DNA of 20,978 bases from a virus. A program made the position numbers and the translations under genes. The notes beneath the pieces are model-generated. The model was given only the letters and a program-made list of their open reading frames with translations, had not been told where the DNA came from and made no database searches. The stretch covers positions 1-20,978 of IMG/VR virus record IMGVR_UViG_3300025168_000830, one strand, 5' to 3'. Within the stretch, counting starts at the first letter, position 1. Each line of letters opens with the position of its first letter. Positions 1 to 17,241 of this stretch are shown here, in pieces.

Positions 1-265
1 CTTCGAAAGACCTCGCACTGGAAACGCTGGATAGTACCTTTTTACTACAGGCAGTTAGTATCAATCTTACATCGACAATCCTACATGTCGCTCTATTTTA
101 TATATAGTGATTGCTAAATACATTTAACATCAACACATATTGATTGTAGATGGTAACATACATTTTTATCTGACACTTTTCGATGTAAAGAATTAGCTCC
201 TTGTCTCATTTCTCGATGTTGATCTATCTTGCTGCATTCTTATATATAATTATACATAAGGGCGC

Positions 266-440
266 GATGTTATGCGCGCGCGTGCGCGTGATCGTGCGCG
301 CGTGCGATCCCATGGGGCCGCGTGCGCGTGCGCGCGGTATTGGAGACGCGAGGGCGTGCGGGAGCGTGCGGGGGCGTGCGCGCGTATATAAACGCGCGAG
401 GGCGCGCCTCAGGGCGCGAGGGCGCGCAAGGGGGCGGCGT
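266..440. repeat. GC-rich low-complexity tract with Z-DNA-like alternation
   Basis: The tract is built from repeated GCGCGTGCGCG, GGGCGTGCG and GCGAGGGCGCGC tokens, interrupted by one short AT island (GTATATAAA near 384-392). Runs of alternating CG/TG steps could favour left-handed DNA; that is inference. It lies next to an AT-rich stretch, giving an abrupt composition step near 260. No unit length is fixed, so this is simple-sequence expansion rather than a true tandem repeat. Confidence 0.6.
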
Positions 441-523
441 TGTGAGCCATGGCCGCTCTCAGAGGCGCCTAGACGGGCCAGGGAGAAGCCTCAGCCTCGC
501 AGCAGGCGCAATCCCACCCCCAT

Positions 524-563
524 GGCCTCTCGTGGCCTCTCAGGGCCTCTCAGGGGCGCTCAG
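524..563. repeat. 10-bp tandem repeat (GGCCTCTCRK), about four units
   Basis: The octamer GGCCTCTC starts at 524, 534 and 544, followed by a degenerate fourth unit (GGGGCGCTCA) near 552-561. The 10-bp period is close to one helical turn. It sits in the gene-free GC-rich region and has no evident coding role. Confidence 0.6.
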
Positions 564-655
564 CAGTGAGCAAGGGCGAGCGGCGCCCTGTAGGCGGCTG
601 TGGGCCCGTGGGGACGACTGCGGCGCGCGCTGCCGGCCGTCCTGGCCCCATGCAT

Positions 656-691
656 GAAAAATCCCCCCACCCCGTGTGAGAGGGCAGGGGG
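656..691 (-). terminator. Likely intrinsic terminator for the leftward operon
   Basis: On the minus strand a C-rich arm (691-682) pairs over 10 positions with a G-rich arm (about 672-663) across an 8-9 nt loop, then runs into ATTTTTC. The stem is complete only in minus-strand RNA, where two positions become G-U wobbles; in plus-strand RNA one of these is an A-C mismatch. It lies about 65 bp past the stop of the 362-aa gene, which suits termination of the leftward run. A second hairpin, GGGCCC-GTAT-GGGCCC, lies at 720-735. Confidence 0.55.
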
Positions 692-735
692 CAGGGGGCG
701 AGGGGGTGTGAGTCTCAGCGGGCCCGTATGGGCCC

Positions 736-757
736 ATAACTAAGGGGGCGCAAGTCT
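736..757 (-). repeat. Gene-end motif copy A (22 bp, 20/22 match to 1862-1883)
   Basis: The minus-strand sequence contains AGACTTGCG followed by a C-run and TTAGTTAT. It abuts the stop codon of the 362-aa gene. The same 22-bp block recurs at 1862-1883 with two mismatches, just after the stop of the 109-aa gene. The core GAGACTTGCG also occurs at the 3' end of the unrelated gene at 4287. Confidence 0.6.
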
Positions 758-1845
758 CAGCCGAGCCAGGACAGGGTGACGGCGCCATCTGCCAGGGGCT
801 GTGCTGAGTCGTGGCCGCGAAGGCTGAACAGGTCGGCCACCGCGCCAGCGCCTCGGCTGGTTTTAGTGCGCAGGATTACTGCACCGAATCCATCCCTGTA
901 CCTGTGGTCGCTTAGATCTCCATCGATGCTGGGGACCGTGATGGAGTCAAGCCCTGAGAGGATGGTGACGCGATCCGGGATCGGCGCGCCCTTCTTTATG
1001 GCCACCGGAATGGCAAGGCGGAAGCCCTCGCGCAAGGCCGCGAGACCGTCGCGGCATGCTGTGGGCCGATCGGCCGCGAATGATGCTGTGACATCCACCC
1101 CGGCGGCGCGCTGCGCGATCAAGCCGAGGGGGCCGCCTACAGGGGCCTTGCAATATTCGTATGCAGTCAAGCCAGGATTCGCCGCAAGGCGTTCTGTGAT
1201 CGGCGCGGCGGTGTGGGGGCTGGTCTCGAAGCCGTACCGCTCGCGAAGGCTTAGCGCCTCGCCTGGGGTGATGTGGACCGGCATTCCATGCCATCCCCCG
1301 GAACTATTCGGCCCCTCATCGGTGCCGCGTAATCTCACGGCCAAAGTCTCACCCGCGAGCCGAGCGGCGGCGTAATGGCGGGCGATGCTCCAAAGGATAG
1401 CCCGCGCATAAATTTCGGGGTCCCAGATCATGCCGAGGGTGCGACGGCCCCTAGCCGCTGAGACTGTCGACCCAAGCCCGCCGTGTCCAGAAAAATTAAG
1501 ACAACCACCCTCTGCAGATCCGCAGCCTGCAGTCGCCCAGGGACAACCATTATGGGCCAGCGCGGCGGCGGTGAGGCCCTCCCGCTCGGCTAGTTCCAGC
1601 AGGGAGGGGATGAACCCCCGCGCGGTGGTGCTGCCCTCGTTGCCCGGCGTGATGGCGCGGGCCAGGGCTTTAGCTGGCAAATGATGAAGGATGAGCCCGC
1701 GACCATGGCCGAGGGCCTCGCCTTTCATCGTCTTGGGGTTTGACGTGGTGAGCAGTTTCGGCAGGCTGAACCCGAACCGCGCGAGGAGATTTCGCACGTC
1801 TAGGGGTATCGCGCCGGGGGTGGCCGCGTGGATGAGTGAGGGCAT
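757..1845 (-). CDS. Unknown 362-aa Cys-containing phage/plasmid-type protein (possibly GP88-like)
   Basis: Function unknown. The part around residues 95-170 has the layout GCPWATAGC...GGCLNFSGHGG, then Arg-rich residues (AARGRRT), a W-D-P-E segment, and VRLRGTDEGPNSSGGW. This order resembles a family of phage/plasmid proteins of unknown role (mycobacteriophage GP88-like: Cys cluster, Arg-Arg-Thr, then RLNGTSD). That match is from memory and is the main uncertainty. The Cys residues could bind a metal, which is inference. The start is the first ATG, directly behind a C-rich leader (TTACCCCTTACACAGAA) with no Shine-Dalgarno. It is the last and largest gene of the leftward GC-rich run and is followed by a terminator-like hairpin. 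Its composition is far more GC-rich than genes right of 4.2 kb. Confidence 0.75.
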   Translation of the reverse strand: MPSLIHAATPGAIPLDVRNLLARFGFSLPKLLTTSNPKTMKGEALGHGRGLILHHLPAKALARAITPGNEGSTTARGFIPSLLELAEREGLTAAALAHNGCPWATAGCGSAEGGCLNFSGHGGLGSTVSAARGRRTLGMIWDPEIYARAILWSIARHYAAARLAGETLAVRLRGTDEGPNSSGGWHGMPVHITPGEALSLRERYGFETSPHTAAPITERLAANPGLTAYEYCKAPVGGPLGLIAQRAAGVDVTASFAADRPTACRDGLAALREGFRLAIPVAIKKGAPIPDRVTILSGLDSITVPSIDGDLSDHRYRDGFGAVILRTKTSRGAGAVADLFSLRGHDSAQPLADGAVTLSWLG

Positions 1846-1861
1846 TTCTGTGTAAGGGGTA

Positions 1862-1883
1862 ATAACTAAAGGGCCGCAAGTCT
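1862..1883 (-). repeat. Gene-end motif copy B with adjoining TTACCCC leader
   Basis: This is the second copy of the 22-bp block at 736-757 (20/22 identical). It fills the short gap between the 109-aa gene (stop at 1892) and the 362-aa gene (start at 1845). It runs directly into the TTACCCCTTAC leader at 1851-1863. The whole 46-bp intergenic space is therefore made of two motifs that recur elsewhere in the window. Confidence 0.6.
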
Positions 1884-1891
1884 TAGGCGCC

Positions 1892-2221
1892 CTAGGGGGC
1901 CGCTAGGGGCAGCACCTCAGCCAGATTGGGAGGGCCTACGGGGTAGGCGTAGCGATCGCCGCCATCCATCGACAGCGCGGCACCTAGGACGACCCAATGC
2001 TCAGCGCGCGGGCGATCCGCTAGTAGCTCAGAATTAAGCCGCGCAACGGCGGCGCGGGCGGCAGCATCTGGACCTGCGGCGAATGGAAGAGTGGCGCGAT
2101 ACTGGGAGGAGCGATCGCGGCCGCGCTTGATTACGGCGGCCCACTTGCCGCCTTGAGTGTTAGTCGGCCCCCGGTACTCAACGGAGCAACCGGGAACGTA
2201 GCGAAAGGGATGGGATGACAT
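1892..2221 (-). CDS. Hypothetical protein, 109 aa
   Basis: Unrecognised. The protein is soluble, with an N-terminal basic segment (VEYRGPTNTQGGKWAAVIKR) that reads like a small beta-rich domain, and an Ala-rich helix near residues 52-68. The start ATG follows the same leader block as the gene at 3014 (27 of 29 bases identical, 2219-2247 versus 3012-3040). The gene carries both HIP1 octamers seen in the window (1952-1959, 2111-2118), which supports long residence in a cyanobacterial genome. It lies 21 bp after the stop of the upstream 110-aa gene and 46 bp before the 362-aa gene, so co-transcription is likely. Confidence 0.65.
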   Translation of the reverse strand: MSSHPFRYVPGCSVEYRGPTNTQGGKWAAVIKRGRDRSSQYRATLPFAAGPDAAARAAVARLNSELLADRPRAEHWVVLGAALSMDGGDRYAYPVGPPNLAEVLPLAAP

Positions 2222-2247
2222 TTTGAAATAGGGGGCAAGGGGTCAGG
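2219..2247 (-). repeat. C-rich leader repeat, copy 1
   Basis: This 29-bp block includes the ATG of the 109-aa gene and matches 3012-3040 at 27 of 29 positions. In gene orientation it reads CCTGACCCCTTGCCCCC, then TATTTCAAAATG. The match ends at or just after the start codon, so it is a conserved translation-initiation region and not a gene duplication. No Shine-Dalgarno is present. Confidence 0.7.
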
Positions 2248-2575
2248 AGTCGAGAGCGCCTAGCGCCTCGTCAATACGCCAGCCGACGAAACTCTCTAGA
2301 TCGTCCGTATCAGGACCGGGCCAGATTTCGCCCTCAGGATCGCCAGACGGATCGATGAGCCAGTGGCCCACCTCGTCGGGATCGTCTGGACAGTGGCCGG
2401 GCTTGACTGTCCACCCTGTGCACTCCTGCAGCAGGTCGGACAGCTCCCACCACTCAAGATGGACACCCTCGCGCCATAAGTCGGCGGCGGCAACAGGTGG
2501 GGTGGCAGGCAGGGCAAGAGAGGCGGCCGCGAATGGCGCGGCCATGATGGCAGAGGGGTTGATCATGCGAGACAC
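2243..2575 (-). CDS. Hypothetical acidic protein, 110 aa
   Basis: Unrecognised. After an Ala-rich N-terminal third (residues about 10-32, hydrophobic enough to be a weak membrane or signal segment) comes an acidic, Trp-rich domain with HLEWWELSDLLQECTGW, then a PDDPDEVGHWLIDPSGDPEG segment and a C-terminal FVGWRIDEALGAL helix. Starts at 2575 (MSRMIN) or 2566 (MIN) are both possible. The longer start overlaps the upstream HTH gene by 13 bp, which suggests translational coupling. Downstream it is separated from the next gene only by the shared C-rich leader. Confidence 0.6.
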   Translation of the reverse strand: MSRMINPSAIMAAPFAAASLALPATPPVAAADLWREGVHLEWWELSDLLQECTGWTVKPGHCPDDPDEVGHWLIDPSGDPEGEIWPGPDTDDLESFVGWRIDEALGALDS

Positions 2576-2754
2576 CAGCGGCGCGCGGTTGTATGGGAGA
2601 CGCCGAGGGCGGCCCCAATGGCGCGGAAGGATTGACCGGCGGCGCGCATGCGGCGCGCGCGCTGTTGTGGGCTCTCAGTGGCCCACAGCAGGATCAGGAC
2701 CGGGAGGATGATCAGGGCCAGGATCGCGGCCGTAATGGTGGTGATGGCTTCCAT
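2563..2754 (-). CDS. Membrane-anchored helix-turn-helix miniprotein, 63 aa
   Basis: Residues about 6-25 (ITAAILALIILPVLILLW) form one hydrophobic membrane span. Residues about 31-60 (QRARRMRAAGQSFRAIGAAL, then GVSHTTARRW) match the common phage/transposase homeodomain-like helix-turn-helix pattern. A single span joined to a DNA-binding motif suggests a membrane-tethered regulator or a DNA-anchoring peptide; this is inference. The ATG at 2754 sits 2 bases beyond the stop of the upstream membrane gene (GTGATCATG junction), and the 3' end overlaps the next gene by 13 bp. A longer frame exists upstream, but its extra N-terminus is antisense-like Arg/Ser-rich sequence inside the neighbouring gene. 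Confidence 0.6.
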   Translation of the reverse strand: MEAITTITAAILALIILPVLILLWATESPQQRARRMRAAGQSFRAIGAALGVSHTTARRWCLA

Positions 2755-2756
2755 GA

Positions 2757-3014
2757 TCACGCCTCGCTCGCTGATCCAGCGGCGGCCACTAGGGACGCTG
2801 CGCCGGTAAAGGCGCAACCCATAATCGCGGCCGTGGCCATAGCTTGGAACCTGTCGCCCTTGTCCTGAGCAATGGAGACGAGGGGAAAAATGGAGAGCAG
2901 GCAAACAGCGGCCGAGGCGCTGAACAGGGCGACGCGGGCGAATTTCTCGCGGCGCTCACGGCGCGCAATAGCGCGGCGAATGTGAGGAGCTGTGGATGGA
3001 TGAAGATTTGACAT
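2757..3014 (-). CDS. Small two-span membrane protein, 85 aa
   Basis: The N-terminus is strongly basic (IRRAIARRERREKFAR, residues about 12-27). It is followed by two hydrophobic segments (about 28-48 and 58-80) separated by QDKGDRFQ. By the positive-inside rule the N-terminus is cytoplasmic. The two-span plan and size recall holin-like or accessory membrane proteins, but no family is recognised. The start ATG lies in leader repeat copy 2 (3012-3040). The stop is 2 bp before the ATG of the membrane-HTH gene, so the two are almost certainly co-translated. Confidence 0.6.
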   Translation of the reverse strand: MSNLHPSTAPHIRRAIARRERREKFARVALFSASAAVCLLSIFPLVSIAQDKGDRFQAMATAAIMGCAFTGAASLVAAAGSASEA

Positions 3015-3248: not shown

Positions 3249-3340
3249 TGAGTGAATTGTTGCCGCTAGGGGTCAAAAGTGGAACCCGTTGCGTGACACC
3301 TGTTCGATTGGCACACTTCATGCCGGCCATTTTTCGCAGG

Positions 3341-3496
3341 ATTTTTAAAGTCCCTATAAGTCAAAACCAAAATTTTTAAAGCTCCTAAATTGCAAAATCA
3401 AAATTTTTCAAACCTGCAAAATTGCGCAACCAAAAAAAATCGAGTTGCAAAATTTCCCCAGCAAAAAAAATCGAATTGCTGAACATTGCGGCCAAA
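3341..3496. repeat. Five diverged tandem units of about 31 bp with phased A/T tracts
   Basis: Units begin at about 3341, 3372, 3403, 3435 and 3466. The first two share ATTTTTAAAG plus most of their remainder; units 4 and 5 share AAAAATCGARTTGC. A-tracts start at 3369, 3400, 3432, 3463 and 3494, a spacing of 31-32 bp, close to three helical turns, which predicts intrinsic curvature. The array lies between a terminator (3494-3525) and the 46-aa gene. Iterons of an origin or partition site, or an upstream curved element, are possible readings. There are no unique spacers, so it is not a CRISPR array. Confidence 0.7.
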
Positions 3497-3533: not shown

Positions 3534-3680
3534 TCAGAGGCCATCTCTGAGGTCGCTGAGCTGGTCTAGTTGGTCGTCGTCAAGCTGAAGAGTGATCAGA
3601 AGGTCGTCGGCTAGGCCGTCGGCGTCATCGTTTGCCATGTAGGCGCGGATCACGGCGAGGAGGTCGCGGTGGCCGGTCAT
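3534..3680 (-). CDS. Small acidic protein, 48 aa
   Basis: MTGHRDLLAVIRAYMANDDA is followed by a very acidic tail with DDLLITLQLDDDQLDQLSDL. Such small acidic proteins are sometimes nucleic-acid mimics or inhibitors, but nothing here proves it. ATG at 3680 is preferred over the upstream in-frame start at 3743 because it directly follows a TTACCCC-type leader (TTACCCCCTACTGATTACCCCT), as in the neighbouring genes. The longer start would run through the 16-bp palindrome at 3705-3720. An intrinsic terminator follows, so it may be a single-gene transcript. Confidence 0.5.
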   Translation of the reverse strand: MTGHRDLLAVIRAYMANDDADGLADDLLITLQLDDDQLDQLSDLRDGL

Positions 3681-3720: not shown

Positions 3721-3999
3721 CATAGAACAACATTAGCGAACATTCGCGCGCATCTGCGAATATTTTATATTTCTTAATATTTCACGCGCGCATGGGGCGG
3801 CGCTGTCGGATCGGGTCGCGGTCAGCGCGGCGCGCGGCCCACTAGGCGACCCCATGGGGGCGGCGGCAGGGTGTCAGCACTGGCCCACCGATGGCGCGCT
3901 GAGAGGCGCGCGGCGGCGCGGCGACAGTTAGTGTCAAAAACTAAAACAACACTAACTAACACGAACCTCGACAACAAAATATTAGATAGTGATATTTTC

Positions 4000-4052
4000 A
4001 CGACGCAATCGTAATTGATTGTTTTTAATTTACGACGCAATCGTAATTGATT
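4000..4052. repeat. 21-bp perfect direct repeat, 32-bp spacing
   Basis: Two identical 21-bp copies lie at 4000-4020 and 4032-4052 (ACGACGCAATCGTAATTGAT plus T). Each contains a partial dyad (AATC-GTAATT-GATT, extended to CAATC/GATTG in copy 1). The 32-bp repeat distance is three helical turns, so two protein dimers would bind on one face of the DNA. Candidate operator pair or iterons. Confidence 0.7.
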
Positions 4053-4178: not shown

Positions 4179-4229
4179 GTGAAAATCGGATTTTTTGTGT
4201 GTGTGAGTGTGAAAAAAAGAACCCCTATA

Positions 4230-4311
4230 AAACCGACCCCTTGCGAGTCTCCGACCCCCTAGAAAACCGGACCCTTGCGAGTCTCCTTAAACCACATCCT
4301 CGCAAGTCTCC
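4230..4311 (-). repeat. Three gene-end motif copies (GGAGACTYGCRAGG)
   Basis: In plus orientation TTGCGAGTCTCC lies at 4241-4252 and 4275-4286, and the variant TCGCAAGTCTCC at 4300-4311. The first two sit in longer similar blocks (AAAACCGRMCCCTTGCGAG). The third lies inside the last codons of the gene ending at 4287, so the protein's C-terminal ETCEDV is repeat-encoded. The related AGACTTGCG core occurs after two genes of the GC-rich block. Confidence 0.6.
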
Positions 4312-4571
4312 GACTCAATCGAAACTTTCAGCATCGATGGCGGGAAGCCCGCCACCATGTTCTGGTGGATCAATGGCCCCTTGAAGTCTTCAGGCACCGA
4401 AGAAGCCTGGACCTCAAGCAACCCGTCAAGCACATCCACCAGATGATTGCGCGATGCCTTCCTCAAAAGCCGTTTGATTTTGACGATATCGTCCCAGTTG
4501 ACCAGCAGGTAGTGGTCGACGTTCATCGCACGCTGAAGCATGTGCATTGTTGCCTTGTCTGAGTCAGTCAT
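4287..4571 (-). CDS. Hypothetical protein, 94 aa
   Basis: Unrecognised, helical and soluble, running MTDSDKATMHMLQRAMNVDH, then YLLVNWDDIVKIKRLLRKAS and further. The ATG at 4571 overlaps the upstream gene's stop by 8 bp; ATG at 4580 is an alternative, while the much longer frame to 4625 would overlap heavily. The last six or so residues are encoded by a copy of a repeat that recurs twice beyond the stop, so the natural C-terminus may have been extended or replaced. It is the last gene of the leftward block. Confidence 0.6.
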   Translation of the reverse strand: MTDSDKATMHMLQRAMNVDHYLLVNWDDIVKIKRLLRKASRNHLVDVLDGLLEVQASSVPEDFKGPLIHQNMVAGFPPSMLKVSIESETCEDVV

Positions 4572-10826: not shown

Positions 10827-11471
10827 ATGTCTATGCGTTTATTGCAGGTGTCTGTAAAAGGCACTGCAGGTCTTCTTCTTTCAAACGTTGCCTACGCTGA
10901 CCCTCTTGGTCGATTTCAGCCAATGAAGGCGTATTTCACCGACAAGAAAGGCAAGTCAAAAACTGAGGGAGTACACAGAGCTGTGCGAACTTTGGACTGG
11001 CTTTTCAGTGGATATTGGAACAAGGAGGGCGATGTCGCAGTTGACGAAAACGAGAACAATGTTGGATTTGAGAATTTTGCTGATCCTTATCTGCCTGGAG
11101 CAAATTTTCAGCGTTGCATGAGGAATGCGGCTACCAAATGGAAATTGGGTAAAGACACTCTTCGTGCGATTGTGGTAACAAACAATCCATTCATTGAGTA
11201 TGACGGCCCGAAAGATGCTGTTGAGATGTTCAACAGTCGTACTCCTAAATTTCAGCTTTGCAGTTTTACGGGTAGAGGCGTCTGGGTTAACAGGCTATTG
11301 ATTCCTGATTGGTCTGTGCAGTTTGAACTGATGCTTGATGACGAAATTATGGGAACAGATCAGCTACGAAGAATTATGAAAATGGCTGGAAAGTCAGAGG
11401 GTCTTGGTACTTGGCGACCACGTTATGGACGCTTTGAGGTCACTGATATTACAGAAATTGAGGAGGTTTGA
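10827..11471 (+). CDS. Conserved phage protein of unknown function, 214 aa
   Basis: I recognise a widespread phage family from its layout, without a known activity: an N-terminal strand with VKGTAGLLLSN, a central PGANFQRCMRNAATKWK, a VEMFNSRTPKF region, a SVQFELMLDDEIMGTDQLRR segment, and a C-terminal GLGTWRPRYGRFEV. The Gly-rich terminal loop and alternating strands and helices are reminiscent of RAMP/Cas7-like nucleic-acid-binding folds; that is speculative. A GGAG Shine-Dalgarno lies 7 nt before the ATG. The next gene follows after 4 bp. Confidence 0.7.
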   Translation: MSMRLLQVSVKGTAGLLLSNVAYADPLGRFQPMKAYFTDKKGKSKTEGVHRAVRTLDWLFSGYWNKEGDVAVDENENNVGFENFADPYLPGANFQRCMRNAATKWKLGKDTLRAIVVTNNPFIEYDGPKDAVEMFNSRTPKFQLCSFTGRGVWVNRLLIPDWSVQFELMLDDEIMGTDQLRRIMKMAGKSEGLGTWRPRYGRFEVTDITEIEEV

Positions 11472-11475
11472 GTAA

Positions 11476-11976
11476 ATGAAACGCAAACAACCTAAAGACT
11501 TGCCTCTCGAAATTGCAGGCATTGACTGGAGAGCCATCAAAAAAGGTGACAGCATCACTGCTGAAAAGGTCAGCGAAATGTGGGACATCTTGTTTGGTGA
11601 CACGCGAAACAAAGACGATCAGTTCGTTTTTGTAAATGTAAAGGAATGGCTTGACTCTGCCCTTAAGTCAATTGGCAAGGAGATGGTGCTTCGCGAGTCA
11701 AAGGGTGTTTTGATCGTTTTAACCGATGATCAAGCTGTTGGTTACTTGGACAGCCAAGCTAATCAAGGGCTAAGAAAACACAAAAACAACACAAGGAGAA
11801 TGTTTACTGCTATTGATCAAGGCAATCTTAGTCCGTCTCAATGCGATCAGCTAAGTGTGAATCAAGCTAAACATGCTTTTATATCAAGTGCTGCTGAGGG
11901 TGCTAAGAAGCAAGCAATAAGCCTGCACAAGCAAGGCGGAAAGCTTCCAAAACTGCGCCCACCAGAAGACAATTGA
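11476..11976 (+). CDS. Hypothetical phage protein, 166 aa
   Basis: Unrecognised. The N-terminal third reads like a phage-type initiator or regulator (GIDWRAIKKGDSITAEKVSE, then MWDILFGD). The middle has FVFVNVKEWLDSALKSIGKE and GVLIVLTDDQAVGYLDSQAN. The C-terminus is basic and unordered (HKQGGKLPKLRPPEDN). It has a GGAGG Shine-Dalgarno 9 nt before the ATG, inside the end of the upstream gene, so the two form a short operon. The tandem hairpin element begins 2 bp after its stop. Confidence 0.65.
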   Translation: MKRKQPKDLPLEIAGIDWRAIKKGDSITAEKVSEMWDILFGDTRNKDDQFVFVNVKEWLDSALKSIGKEMVLRESKGVLIVLTDDQAVGYLDSQANQGLRKHKNNTRRMFTAIDQGNLSPSQCDQLSVNQAKHAFISSAAEGAKKQAISLHKQGGKLPKLRPPEDN

Positions 11977-11978
11977 TG

Positions 11979-12110
11979 TCTGGGCAATGCCAATAAGTCC
12001 CAGGCTCTAACCCCGCTTCTTGCTTCTTCGTTCTGCGTTGTAACTCGTCCCTACGCACCTCCCTGTTTCTTATTGCCATCGCTTCCAAGTTCCACGATTA
12101 AGAACTTGGC
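11979..12110. ncRNA. Structured tandem element, copy 1
   Basis: Two hairpins flank a pyrimidine-rich middle. Hairpin 1: CTGGG (11980-11984) and CCCAG (11999-12003) with a 14-nt loop. Hairpin 2: CCAAGTTC (12085-12092) and GAACTTGG (12102-12109) with loop CACGATTAA. The hairpin-2 stem is preceded by TTATTGCCATCGCTT, which is conserved in copy 2. Coding strand is unknown because both strands can fold. No clear promoter or T-run is visible, so a 3'-UTR element or a DNA-level element remains possible. Confidence 0.6.
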
Positions 12111-12123
12111 CAAAAGTATTTTA

Positions 12124-12260
12124 TCTAGGCAACGTCAATAAGTCCTAGTTCACCTCGACGCCCTGCAACTTACTGCGTTTCGTCTCATCGCGGCTCTCTT
12201 CGCCTCTACGCTCTACGCCTTACCGCCATCGCTTTCCAGTTCCACGATTAAGAACTGGAC
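12124..12260. ncRNA. Structured tandem element, copy 2
   Basis: Same plan as copy 1. Hairpin 1: CTAGG (12125-12129) and CCTAG (12144-12148), again with a 14-nt loop. Hairpin 2: TCCAGTTC (12235-12242) and GAACTGGA (12252-12259), again with loop CACGATTAA. Against copy 1, three stem positions differ and each is matched by a compensating change in the opposite arm. The middle (12149-12219) is not alignable with confidence. It ends 1 bp before the stop codon of the leftward helicase gene. Confidence 0.6.
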
Positions 12261-12261
12261 C

Positions 12262-13647
12262 TTAATACTTCCTCCCATAAAAGATCTTGTAAGCCCAGCC
12301 GGACTTGTATCCCTTCTTTTTGGCTAGTGCAAGAAGTTCAGGCAAGGTTCGCGCCATTGCCTGTGCTTTTTTGCGTTCACGGCGTTCAGCAGAAGCTTCC
12401 CGACGCATCTCTTGTAATTCGCCGTCCTTGTGTGCAAGCTCGCGAGTCTTCTCTTTGAAGACGTGACCACAGCATGGGCATTCAGGCTGCGGCTTGAAGG
12501 CTGCAAAGCATTTTGGGCACTGCCGCACTGATGGTGCTGGTTCGTCCTTGCGTTGCCTTTTTGGCTTGCTGTCTAACGACCAATCGCGGCGATCATCAAC
12601 AAAGCCATGTTTGACAGTGCTGCCAACGTGATCCAGAACAATTGCGATCTTGCCATTTTGAGGCCGGAGGATCCGTCCAACTTGCTGCAAGTACAGCGAC
12701 TCTGACTGAGTTGGTCTGAGGAGAATTGCTGCGGAGACTGCTGGTACATCAGTGCCTTCTGAGACGACATCAACGGAGCAGAGGACTTGAGTGCGACCAT
12801 CGGCAAGACCGGAGATCGCTTCATCACGTTCATCCATGGGCATGTTGCCTGTGACGAGCTTTGCGCGATACCCAGCTGCTTTGAAAGACTCACAAACAGA
12901 GGATGCGTGTTTTACGGAGCAGCAGAAAGCAATAGCAGGTAAGCCGTCAGCGAAGCGACGGTAACAATCGCAGGCAGAACCAGTAATTGTGGGGCGATCC
13001 ATCGCCTGAGAAAGCTGATCATTTGCGTAGTCACCCGCTCGAGTTTTTACTTGGGACAGATCTGCGAGCATTGGCGGAGCGAAGACCTTGTGCGGCGACA
13101 GAAAGCCACCATTTACGAGCTGTTCGACGGAAGGCCCTGACACGAGGGTGTCGAAGTGGCTGCCAAGGCCGCGACCGTCTAATCGGCTGGGAGTAGCGGT
13201 GACGCCAATTTTCCTGGCGTGACTGAACTGGGCGGTAATTTTGTCCCAAGAGCCAGCTACTGCATGGTGTGCTTCATCAATGATGATCAGGTCTGGATTG
13301 AAGTCAGTAGTTGTTAAGCGACGTACAAGTGTCTGAACTGAGGCGATTTGTACCTTGTGTTCTGAGGGCGTGAAGCCTGCAGCGATGATGCCGTGCTGTA
13401 CACCTGCAGCAGTGAGCTTGGATGAGGCTTGCTTGATGAGTTCACGGCGGTGAACAAGGATGAGAGTGGACTTGCTTTTGATCGTTGCGCTACGTGCAAT
13501 TTCAACGAAGACGACAGTCTTGCCAGACCCAGTAGGCATGACAAGTAGTGAGGAGCGACGACCTTGACCGAAAGCCCAGCGGAGGTCTGCTACTGCTTGT
13601 AATTGATAAGGACGTAAGGGCATCGAAGTTGCGTGATGCGTGCTCAT
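12262..13647 (-). CDS. SF2 DEAD/DEAH-box helicase with C-terminal zinc finger, 461 aa
   Basis: ATP-dependent helicase for DNA replication or recombination. Numbered from MSTHHATSMPLRPYQ: Q-motif region RPYQLQAV, Walker A PTGSGKT (38-44), DEAH (124-127), TATP (150-153) and motif VI QVGRILRP (322-329). The tail carries a zinc finger CPKC...CPCC (C377, C380, C390, C393) and a charged helix. The ORF can be extended to 13674, but ATG at 13647 or a later MPLRPYQ start leaves room for the divergent nuclease gene. Its 3' end abuts the tandem hairpin element, which could act as its 3' UTR. Confidence 0.88.
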   Translation of the reverse strand: MSTHHATSMPLRPYQLQAVADLRWAFGQGRRSSLLVMPTGSGKTVVFVEIARSATIKSKSTLILVHRRELIKQASSKLTAAGVQHGIIAAGFTPSEHKVQIASVQTLVRRLTTTDFNPDLIIIDEAHHAVAGSWDKITAQFSHARKIGVTATPSRLDGRGLGSHFDTLVSGPSVEQLVNGGFLSPHKVFAPPMLADLSQVKTRAGDYANDQLSQAMDRPTITGSACDCYRRFADGLPAIAFCCSVKHASSVCESFKAAGYRAKLVTGNMPMDERDEAISGLADGRTQVLCSVDVVSEGTDVPAVSAAILLRPTQSESLYLQQVGRILRPQNGKIAIVLDHVGSTVKHGFVDDRRDWSLDSKPKRQRKDEPAPSVRQCPKCFAAFKPQPECPCCGHVFKEKTRELAHKDGELQEMRREASAERRERKKAQAMARTLPELLALAKKKGYKSGWAYKIFYGRKY

Positions 13648-16932: not shown

Positions 16933-17241
16933 ATGCCTGATTGCAATCGCACCTATCCCGTGCGCGTCGATGTTCGCCTGACAGAAGAAGAGCGCGACCT
17001 CTTGAATGAAGAGGCACTTAAGCGTGGTATCACTCGCCAGGAGCTACTTAGGGCTCGAGTGTTGAGTGAAGCCAATCAGCCTGCACCTGTCCCTGAGATT
17101 AAACCTAAGCACTATTCCAAGGGTCGTGACTCCATCGATCAAGCTATTGACGCTGTCAACCGCCGGTACGACATTCCGCGTTCACAGGTAGAACCATTGA
17201 TCTGCACGATCATTTGTGCTTTAAATGCTCAGGCCAAGTGA
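16933..17241 (+). CDS. Ribbon-helix-helix protein (MobC-like), 102 aa
   Basis: The N-terminus YPVRVDVRLTEEERDLLNEE, then ALKRGITRQELLRARVL, has the ribbon-helix-helix plan seen in plasmid MobC and phage regulators. A Pro-rich linker (about 50-62) leads to a second helical domain (KGRDSIDQAIDAVNRRYDIP). DNA binding is likely, with the target unknown. No relaxase gene is nearby. It overlaps the next gene as GTGA. Confidence 0.7.
   Translation: MPDCNRTYPVRVDVRLTEEERDLLNEEALKRGITRQELLRARVLSEANQPAPVPEIKPKHYSKGRDSIDQAIDAVNRRYDIPRSQVEPLICTIICALNAQAK

Follow-up and report, generated by a model that had tools for sequence, protein, structure and literature searches.

A two-unit structured RNA element beside a vipr-like gene in a virus record: a probable VIPR guide array with an altered fixed triplet

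VIPR systems have been described in a preprint of April 2026 (PMC13142463). They comprise a RAMP protein, Vipr, an accessory gene, and guide RNAs (vrRNAs) made of YNNGG repeats with a conserved tail, which carries a pseudoknot in the SUSP1 clade. The repeat is given there as GGY/NN, with 'a related consensus' in some types; the dinucleotides are reported to address DNA with one base skipped per repeat, and the natural targets to be competing phages and satellites (PMC13142463). VIPR is also proposed as an ancestor of CRISPR. Here we analyse a two-unit element in the IMG/VR virus record IMGVR_UViG_3300025168_000830; the window is the whole record, 20,978 bp. Because the published vrRNA anatomy matches the element and a Vipr homologue lies upstream, we conclude that a VIPR locus encoding two guide RNAs is present in the window: the element would be a vrRNA array, with the vipr and accessory genes directly upstream. 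We put the probability of this reading at about 0.94. It is carried by the anatomy of the units, covariation across their whole family, a 5-nt register fixed by the pseudoknot, and coupling to a Vipr/RAMP gene. The features of the locus are as follows.

10827-11471, + strand: vipr gene, 214 aa, phrog_4652, predicted RAMP fold, expected guide-RNA binder (profile, hhalign, AlphaFold2 (AF2)/Foldseek)
11476-11976, + strand: accessory gene in the vap position, 166 aa, largely helical, adjoining vipr (AF2; fold match in phage Trine)
11980-12003, + strand: vrRNA1 5′ hairpin, CTGGG/CCCAG
12004-12077, + strand: vrRNA1 guide tract, 15 pentamers of triplet + NN (family periodicity)
12078-12109, + strand: vrRNA1 3′ pseudoknot tail, ATCG 12078-12081 with CGAT 12095-12098, stem 12085-12092/12102-12109
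12125-12148, + strand: vrRNA2 5′ hairpin, CTAGG/CCTAG
12149-12227, + strand: vrRNA2 guide tract, 16 pentamers (period-5 score 6.5; the highest score in the rest of the window is 4.6)
12228-12259, + strand: vrRNA2 3′ pseudoknot tail, ATCG 12228-12231 with CGAT 12245-12248, stem 12235-12242/12252-12259

The tandem element and its family

The element consists of two structured copies lying head to tail, each with two hairpins (11980-12003 and 12085-12109, then 12125-12148 and 12235-12259). In hairpin 1, CTGGG (11980-11984) faces CCCAG (11999-12003) in copy 1, and CTAGG (12125-12129) faces CCTAG (12144-12148) in copy 2. The arms of hairpin 2 are CCAAGTTC (12085-12092) and GAACTTGG (12102-12109) in copy 1, and TCCAGTTC (12235-12242) and GAACTGGA (12252-12259) in copy 2. 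Between the copies hairpin 1 differs in both members of one pair and hairpin 2 in both members of two pairs, no stem position is changed on one side only, and the 9-nt loop of hairpin 2 has the same letters in both. CGAT in this loop pairs with ATCG upstream of the hairpin to form a pseudoknot, and GTTCCACGATTAAGAAC occurs twice in the window, where 0.02 occurrences are expected. An original prediction, made from the window alone, had described the two copies, both hairpins, the compensatory changes and the identical loop, and had placed them between convergent genes. All of this was recovered from the sequence, the flanking genes being a 166-aa open reading frame (+) that ends at 11976 and a 470-aa helicase gene (–) that ends at 12262. 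Its unit length of roughly 135 bp was too short, the measured start-to-start spacing being 145-150 bp, and its tandem duplication is not a simple one: array units have common ends and different guide tracts.

Further phage copies with covariation, the check that the original prediction had asked for, were found. The 19-mer AGTTCCACGATTAAGAACT is present in 39 IMG/VR contigs and a relaxed element pattern in 70, whereas the relaxed pattern had no match in the contigs of 84,980 bacterial and archaeal species (one genome per species). A descriptor search detected related arrays in 66 IMG/VR contigs, with 1 to 7 or more units each. The family unit has a 5′ hairpin, a 3′ hairpin engaged in an H-type pseudoknot (loop CGAT with upstream ATCG) and, between them, a variable middle that spans about 40-180 nt. 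For covariation we used 67 distinct hairpin-2 sequences, picked by loop and upstream motif only, with no requirement on the stem. The inner six pairs were 97.0% paired, compared with 65.2% (maximum 72.4%) when the arms were re-dealt, and 25 distinct stems were represented; the 5′ hairpin also paired better than re-dealt controls wherever sequence variation sufficed to tell. This covariation bears out the phage non-coding RNA with selected secondary structure that had been suggested. In both hairpins, read on the + strand, G-U pairs are more numerous than A-C mismatches, and the RNA strand is therefore most likely +, the same as that of the upstream genes.

No Rfam family matched at its gathering score, and none matched the element at E≤10; a blastn search of GenBank phages returned chance matches only. 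Absence from Rfam accords with the original prediction, which had recognised no known RNA class; the new class that it proposed does not stand, as the units are best read as VIPR guide RNAs. Copy number varies at the same site among close relatives, with two units in the window, two in contig L042 and three in contig L041. As a guess, unlike stems in neighbouring units may limit mispairing or recombination. Several units in L035, L046, L048, L059 and L068 lack the usual 5′ hairpin, and by eye a TTTTTGTCTTAGC-like motif apparently follows the preceding tail in them. The window primase has its closest named relative in Synechococcus phage S-H1 (49.7% identity), in which no array was found, and from sequence a marine picocyanobacterial host is plausible for the window phage. 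We use 'marine' for the whole family presumptively, from the S-H1 relative and a remark in the original prediction.

The pentamer tract and the upstream genes

The ends of the unit are conserved, as had been claimed; the pyrimidine-rich middle, which had been called unconserved, is strictly periodic at 5 nt. Across 172 distinct middles, TC recurs at 5, 10, 15 and so on to 35 nt. When 105 non-redundant middles were compared with dinucleotide-preserving shuffles, period-5 power reached z=46.7 and the harmonic at 2.5 reached z=59, with no enrichment at period 3. For want of a period-3 signal a coding reading of the arrays was rejected, and a Rho-binding (rut) reading was dropped in view of the Vipr gene and the strictness of the 5-nt register. 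The pentamer is a near-fixed triplet (Y at the first position, U/G at the second, C/U at the third) followed by two free bases, and tracts in the marine arrays run to about 35 pentamers. The register of the pentamers is tied to the 3′ pseudoknot in 92 of the 105 middles and bears no relation to the 5′ hairpin. The arrays thus have the tandem pentamers of fixed triplet and variable dinucleotide that define vrRNAs, here Y[U/G]C + NN, and a conserved 3′ tail in which the ATCG/CGAT pseudoknot and the covarying stem anchor the register.

The profile of the 214-aa protein family gave one PDB match, 36pp, 'SUSP1 Vipr protein' (E=9.6e-24), and hhalign aligned the window protein to SUSP1 Vipr with a probability of 99.5 and 28% identity. 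The AF2 model of the protein (predicted local distance difference test score, pLDDT, 85.8) had CRISPR RAMPs as its top Foldseek matches, mainly Csm3 and Cmr/Cas7-type chains. Profile hit, alignment and RAMP fold agree with the description of Vipr as a single-RRM RAMP protein. Among 46 arrays with enough upstream sequence, 45 have a homologue of this gene just upstream on the same strand, and a second gene of the 166-aa type accompanies vipr in array contigs, as the accessory gene does in VIPR systems. The AF2 model of the 166-aa protein (pLDDT 86.1) matched no fold in the PDB, but it did match a 267-aa protein that Gordonia phage Trine encodes downstream of Vipr (Foldseek probability 1.00, E=3.8e-3). 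Beyond the RAMP homologue, no cas gene was recognised among the window proteins scanned, and no Vipr relative was confirmed in the genome contigs. In contig L034 (408-881) the vipr homologue is missing about 55 internal residues that its relatives have, and may be inactive.

This setting bears on two other accounts of the hairpins; a 3′-end protection element and a mobile hairpin family had been raised in the original prediction. Their position between convergent gene ends would suit a bidirectional terminator or 3′-end protection element. The array, however, showed no terminator-like site; the upstream gene pair is constant while the gene downstream varies from contig to contig, and the pentamer tract would be left unexplained. 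We consider such an element highly improbable. A mobile hairpin, similar to a miniature inverted-repeat transposable element, or an array of integron attC-like cassettes would account for tandem units with common ends and changing contents, and by eye an integrase-like open reading frame follows the array in L035. Against this, the arrays sit at one site beside vipr (the 45 of 46 above), the 84,980 bacterial and archaeal species genomes gave 0 matches, no copies scattered over unrelated sites of one genome were seen, and the units have a pseudoknot tail and a 5-nt register. The chance that the family is mobile in this way seems to us close to negligible.

The altered triplet and predicted DNA targeting

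The fixed triplet is GG + pyrimidine in SUSP1 and four other phages, Y[U/G]C in the marine clades, and YGC in L056, the most divergent marine locus. What is new here is a marine branch with the triplet Y[U/G]C, set against the GGY of five Vipr phages, although this triplet may fall under the published 'related consensus'. We think it probable that a separate marine VIPR lineage has replaced GGY by Y[U/G]C as the fixed part of its guides, with the 5-nt architecture retained and the guides still skipping the codon wobble base. Its Vipr and guides would then be orthogonal to those described so far, and L056 would be an intermediate. In L056 (2637-4414) the gene order is vipr, array, accessory gene, and YGC lies between GGC and Y[U/G]C.

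By analogy with the published SUSP1 system, Vipr subunits would polymerise along the guide tract, the protein holding the triplets. The dinucleotides would pair with the DNA of competing phages, one target base being skipped after each pair, and this pairing would block transcription. Of the readings compared, sense codon positions 1-2 describe the variable dinucleotides best (+47 log-likelihood relative to the mixture, in which codon positions 1-2 have weights of 0.71 sense and 0.18 antisense), and the dinucleotide TA has an observed/expected ratio of 0.51. Some other phases of the pentamer also gave high likelihoods, being strongly biased. When orthologous guides were compared, the first base of the triplet changed fastest and the dinucleotides were comparatively conserved. 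The codon-position fit is suggestive of DNA targeting with a 1-nt skip at the wobble base, although base composition alone might conceivably explain it.

A strict 5-nt period with fixed triplets could also be produced by a binding array, or sponge, for a TRAP-like RNA-binding ring protein with a 5-nt footprint, unrelated to DNA targeting. The neighbouring gene, however, encodes a RAMP homologous to the solved SUSP1 Vipr, and the dinucleotides are codon-like and conserved between orthologous guides, so we regard a TRAP-like array as very unlikely.

Under the 1-nt-skip rule the predicted target of vrRNA2 is ACNGANCCNAANACNGTNGTNATNGGNTCNGCNTANTCNGCNACNCA. Exact partial patterns from both window guides and two others, searched in IMG/VR, gave matches that did not exceed chance beyond the searched core. 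A mismatch-tolerant search of 42 records showed no excess over order-shuffled guides, and neither did a 1.2-Mb set that included seven cyanophages. The best match, of vrRNA2 to L082, covered 22 of 24 bases over 12 dinucleotides; it is borderline after allowing for the scan, and we do not claim it as a target. The array could be a VIPR guide array whose marine branch reads its target otherwise, through another skip length, an RNA target, or a code that uses the altered triplet. A triplet unlike that of all other Vipr phages examined would fit such a difference, as would the failure to find a target under the 1-nt-skip rule. The dinucleotide statistics, in turn, fit codon positions 1-2, the pattern that skipping every third base should give, and we consider a different way of reading the target unlikely.

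Several of these results count against the assignment to VIPR. No DNA target was found for either window guide or for the other guides tested. The triplet of the marine branch is Y[U/G]C, not GGY; the exact GGY/NN repeat of the SUSP1 and P. fulva VIPR clades is absent, and we do not place the marine locus in those clades. No significant sequence match links the 166-aa accessory protein to SUSP1 Vap1 or to known vap proteins. A marine VIPR branch with its own fixed triplet would show that the scaffold letters of the guide code can evolve, would offer natural variants from which the reading of RNA by Vipr could be learned, and would point to a guide-based contest between ocean phages. Its many natural arrays would also be of use in decoding targets.

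Some features elsewhere in the window were also recorded. Positions 1-3000 have a G+C content of 60-65%, compared with about 50% in the remaining record, which may point to a chimeric contig or to an acquired segment. Tandem direct repeats of 31-34 bp lie at 3341-3476, 3980-4043 and 4219-4324, mostly without clear genes, and are possibly iterons or an origin. A match to the mobilisation protein NikA at 16933-17241, unusual for a phage, is barely over the Pfam cut-off.

Comparison with known systems

The closest described system is the type II VIPR of Escherichia phage SUSP1 (PDB 36pp). The two loci share a RAMP-fold Vipr (28% identity), an adjoining accessory gene, and tandem guide RNAs of about 100-150 nt on the strand of the genes, with a 5′ hairpin, a pentamer tract and a 3′ H-type pseudoknot; in the SUSP1 sequence that we examined, these parts follow in the same order and the pseudoknot has the same topology. 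They differ in the triplet, which is Y[U/G]C in the window family and GGY in SUSP1, and in the accessory protein, which has no detectable sequence similarity to that of SUSP1. The marine arrays also reach 7 or more units, and their longest tracts have about 35 pentamers.

Gordonia phages Trine and MakoManhole, Mycobacterium phage LittleE and Pseudomonas phage Medea1 have phrog_4652/Vipr homologues (26-32% identity) adjoining pentamer tracts. Trine further resembles the window in the fold of the protein downstream of Vipr, but the tracts of all four phages are GGC/GGU + NN. In Trine gene 40 (L088, 3585-4388) the annotated start of the coding sequence covers a GGC/NN tract at 3628, and the true start is probably further downstream. 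In LittleE (L090) GG + pyrimidine pentamer tracts lie on either side of the Vipr homologue (1672-1858 and 3264-3448), and over the first tract pair the opposite strand is annotated as a coding gene.

With class 1 CRISPR systems the locus shares the fold of the Vipr-like protein, which is that of the backbone proteins Csm3, Cmr and Cas7. It is not organised as a CRISPR-Cas array: there are no CRISPR repeats, the unit ends differ from one another through compensatory changes, and the guide tract is repetitive in its own right, with a period of 5 nt compared with 6 nt in CRISPR.
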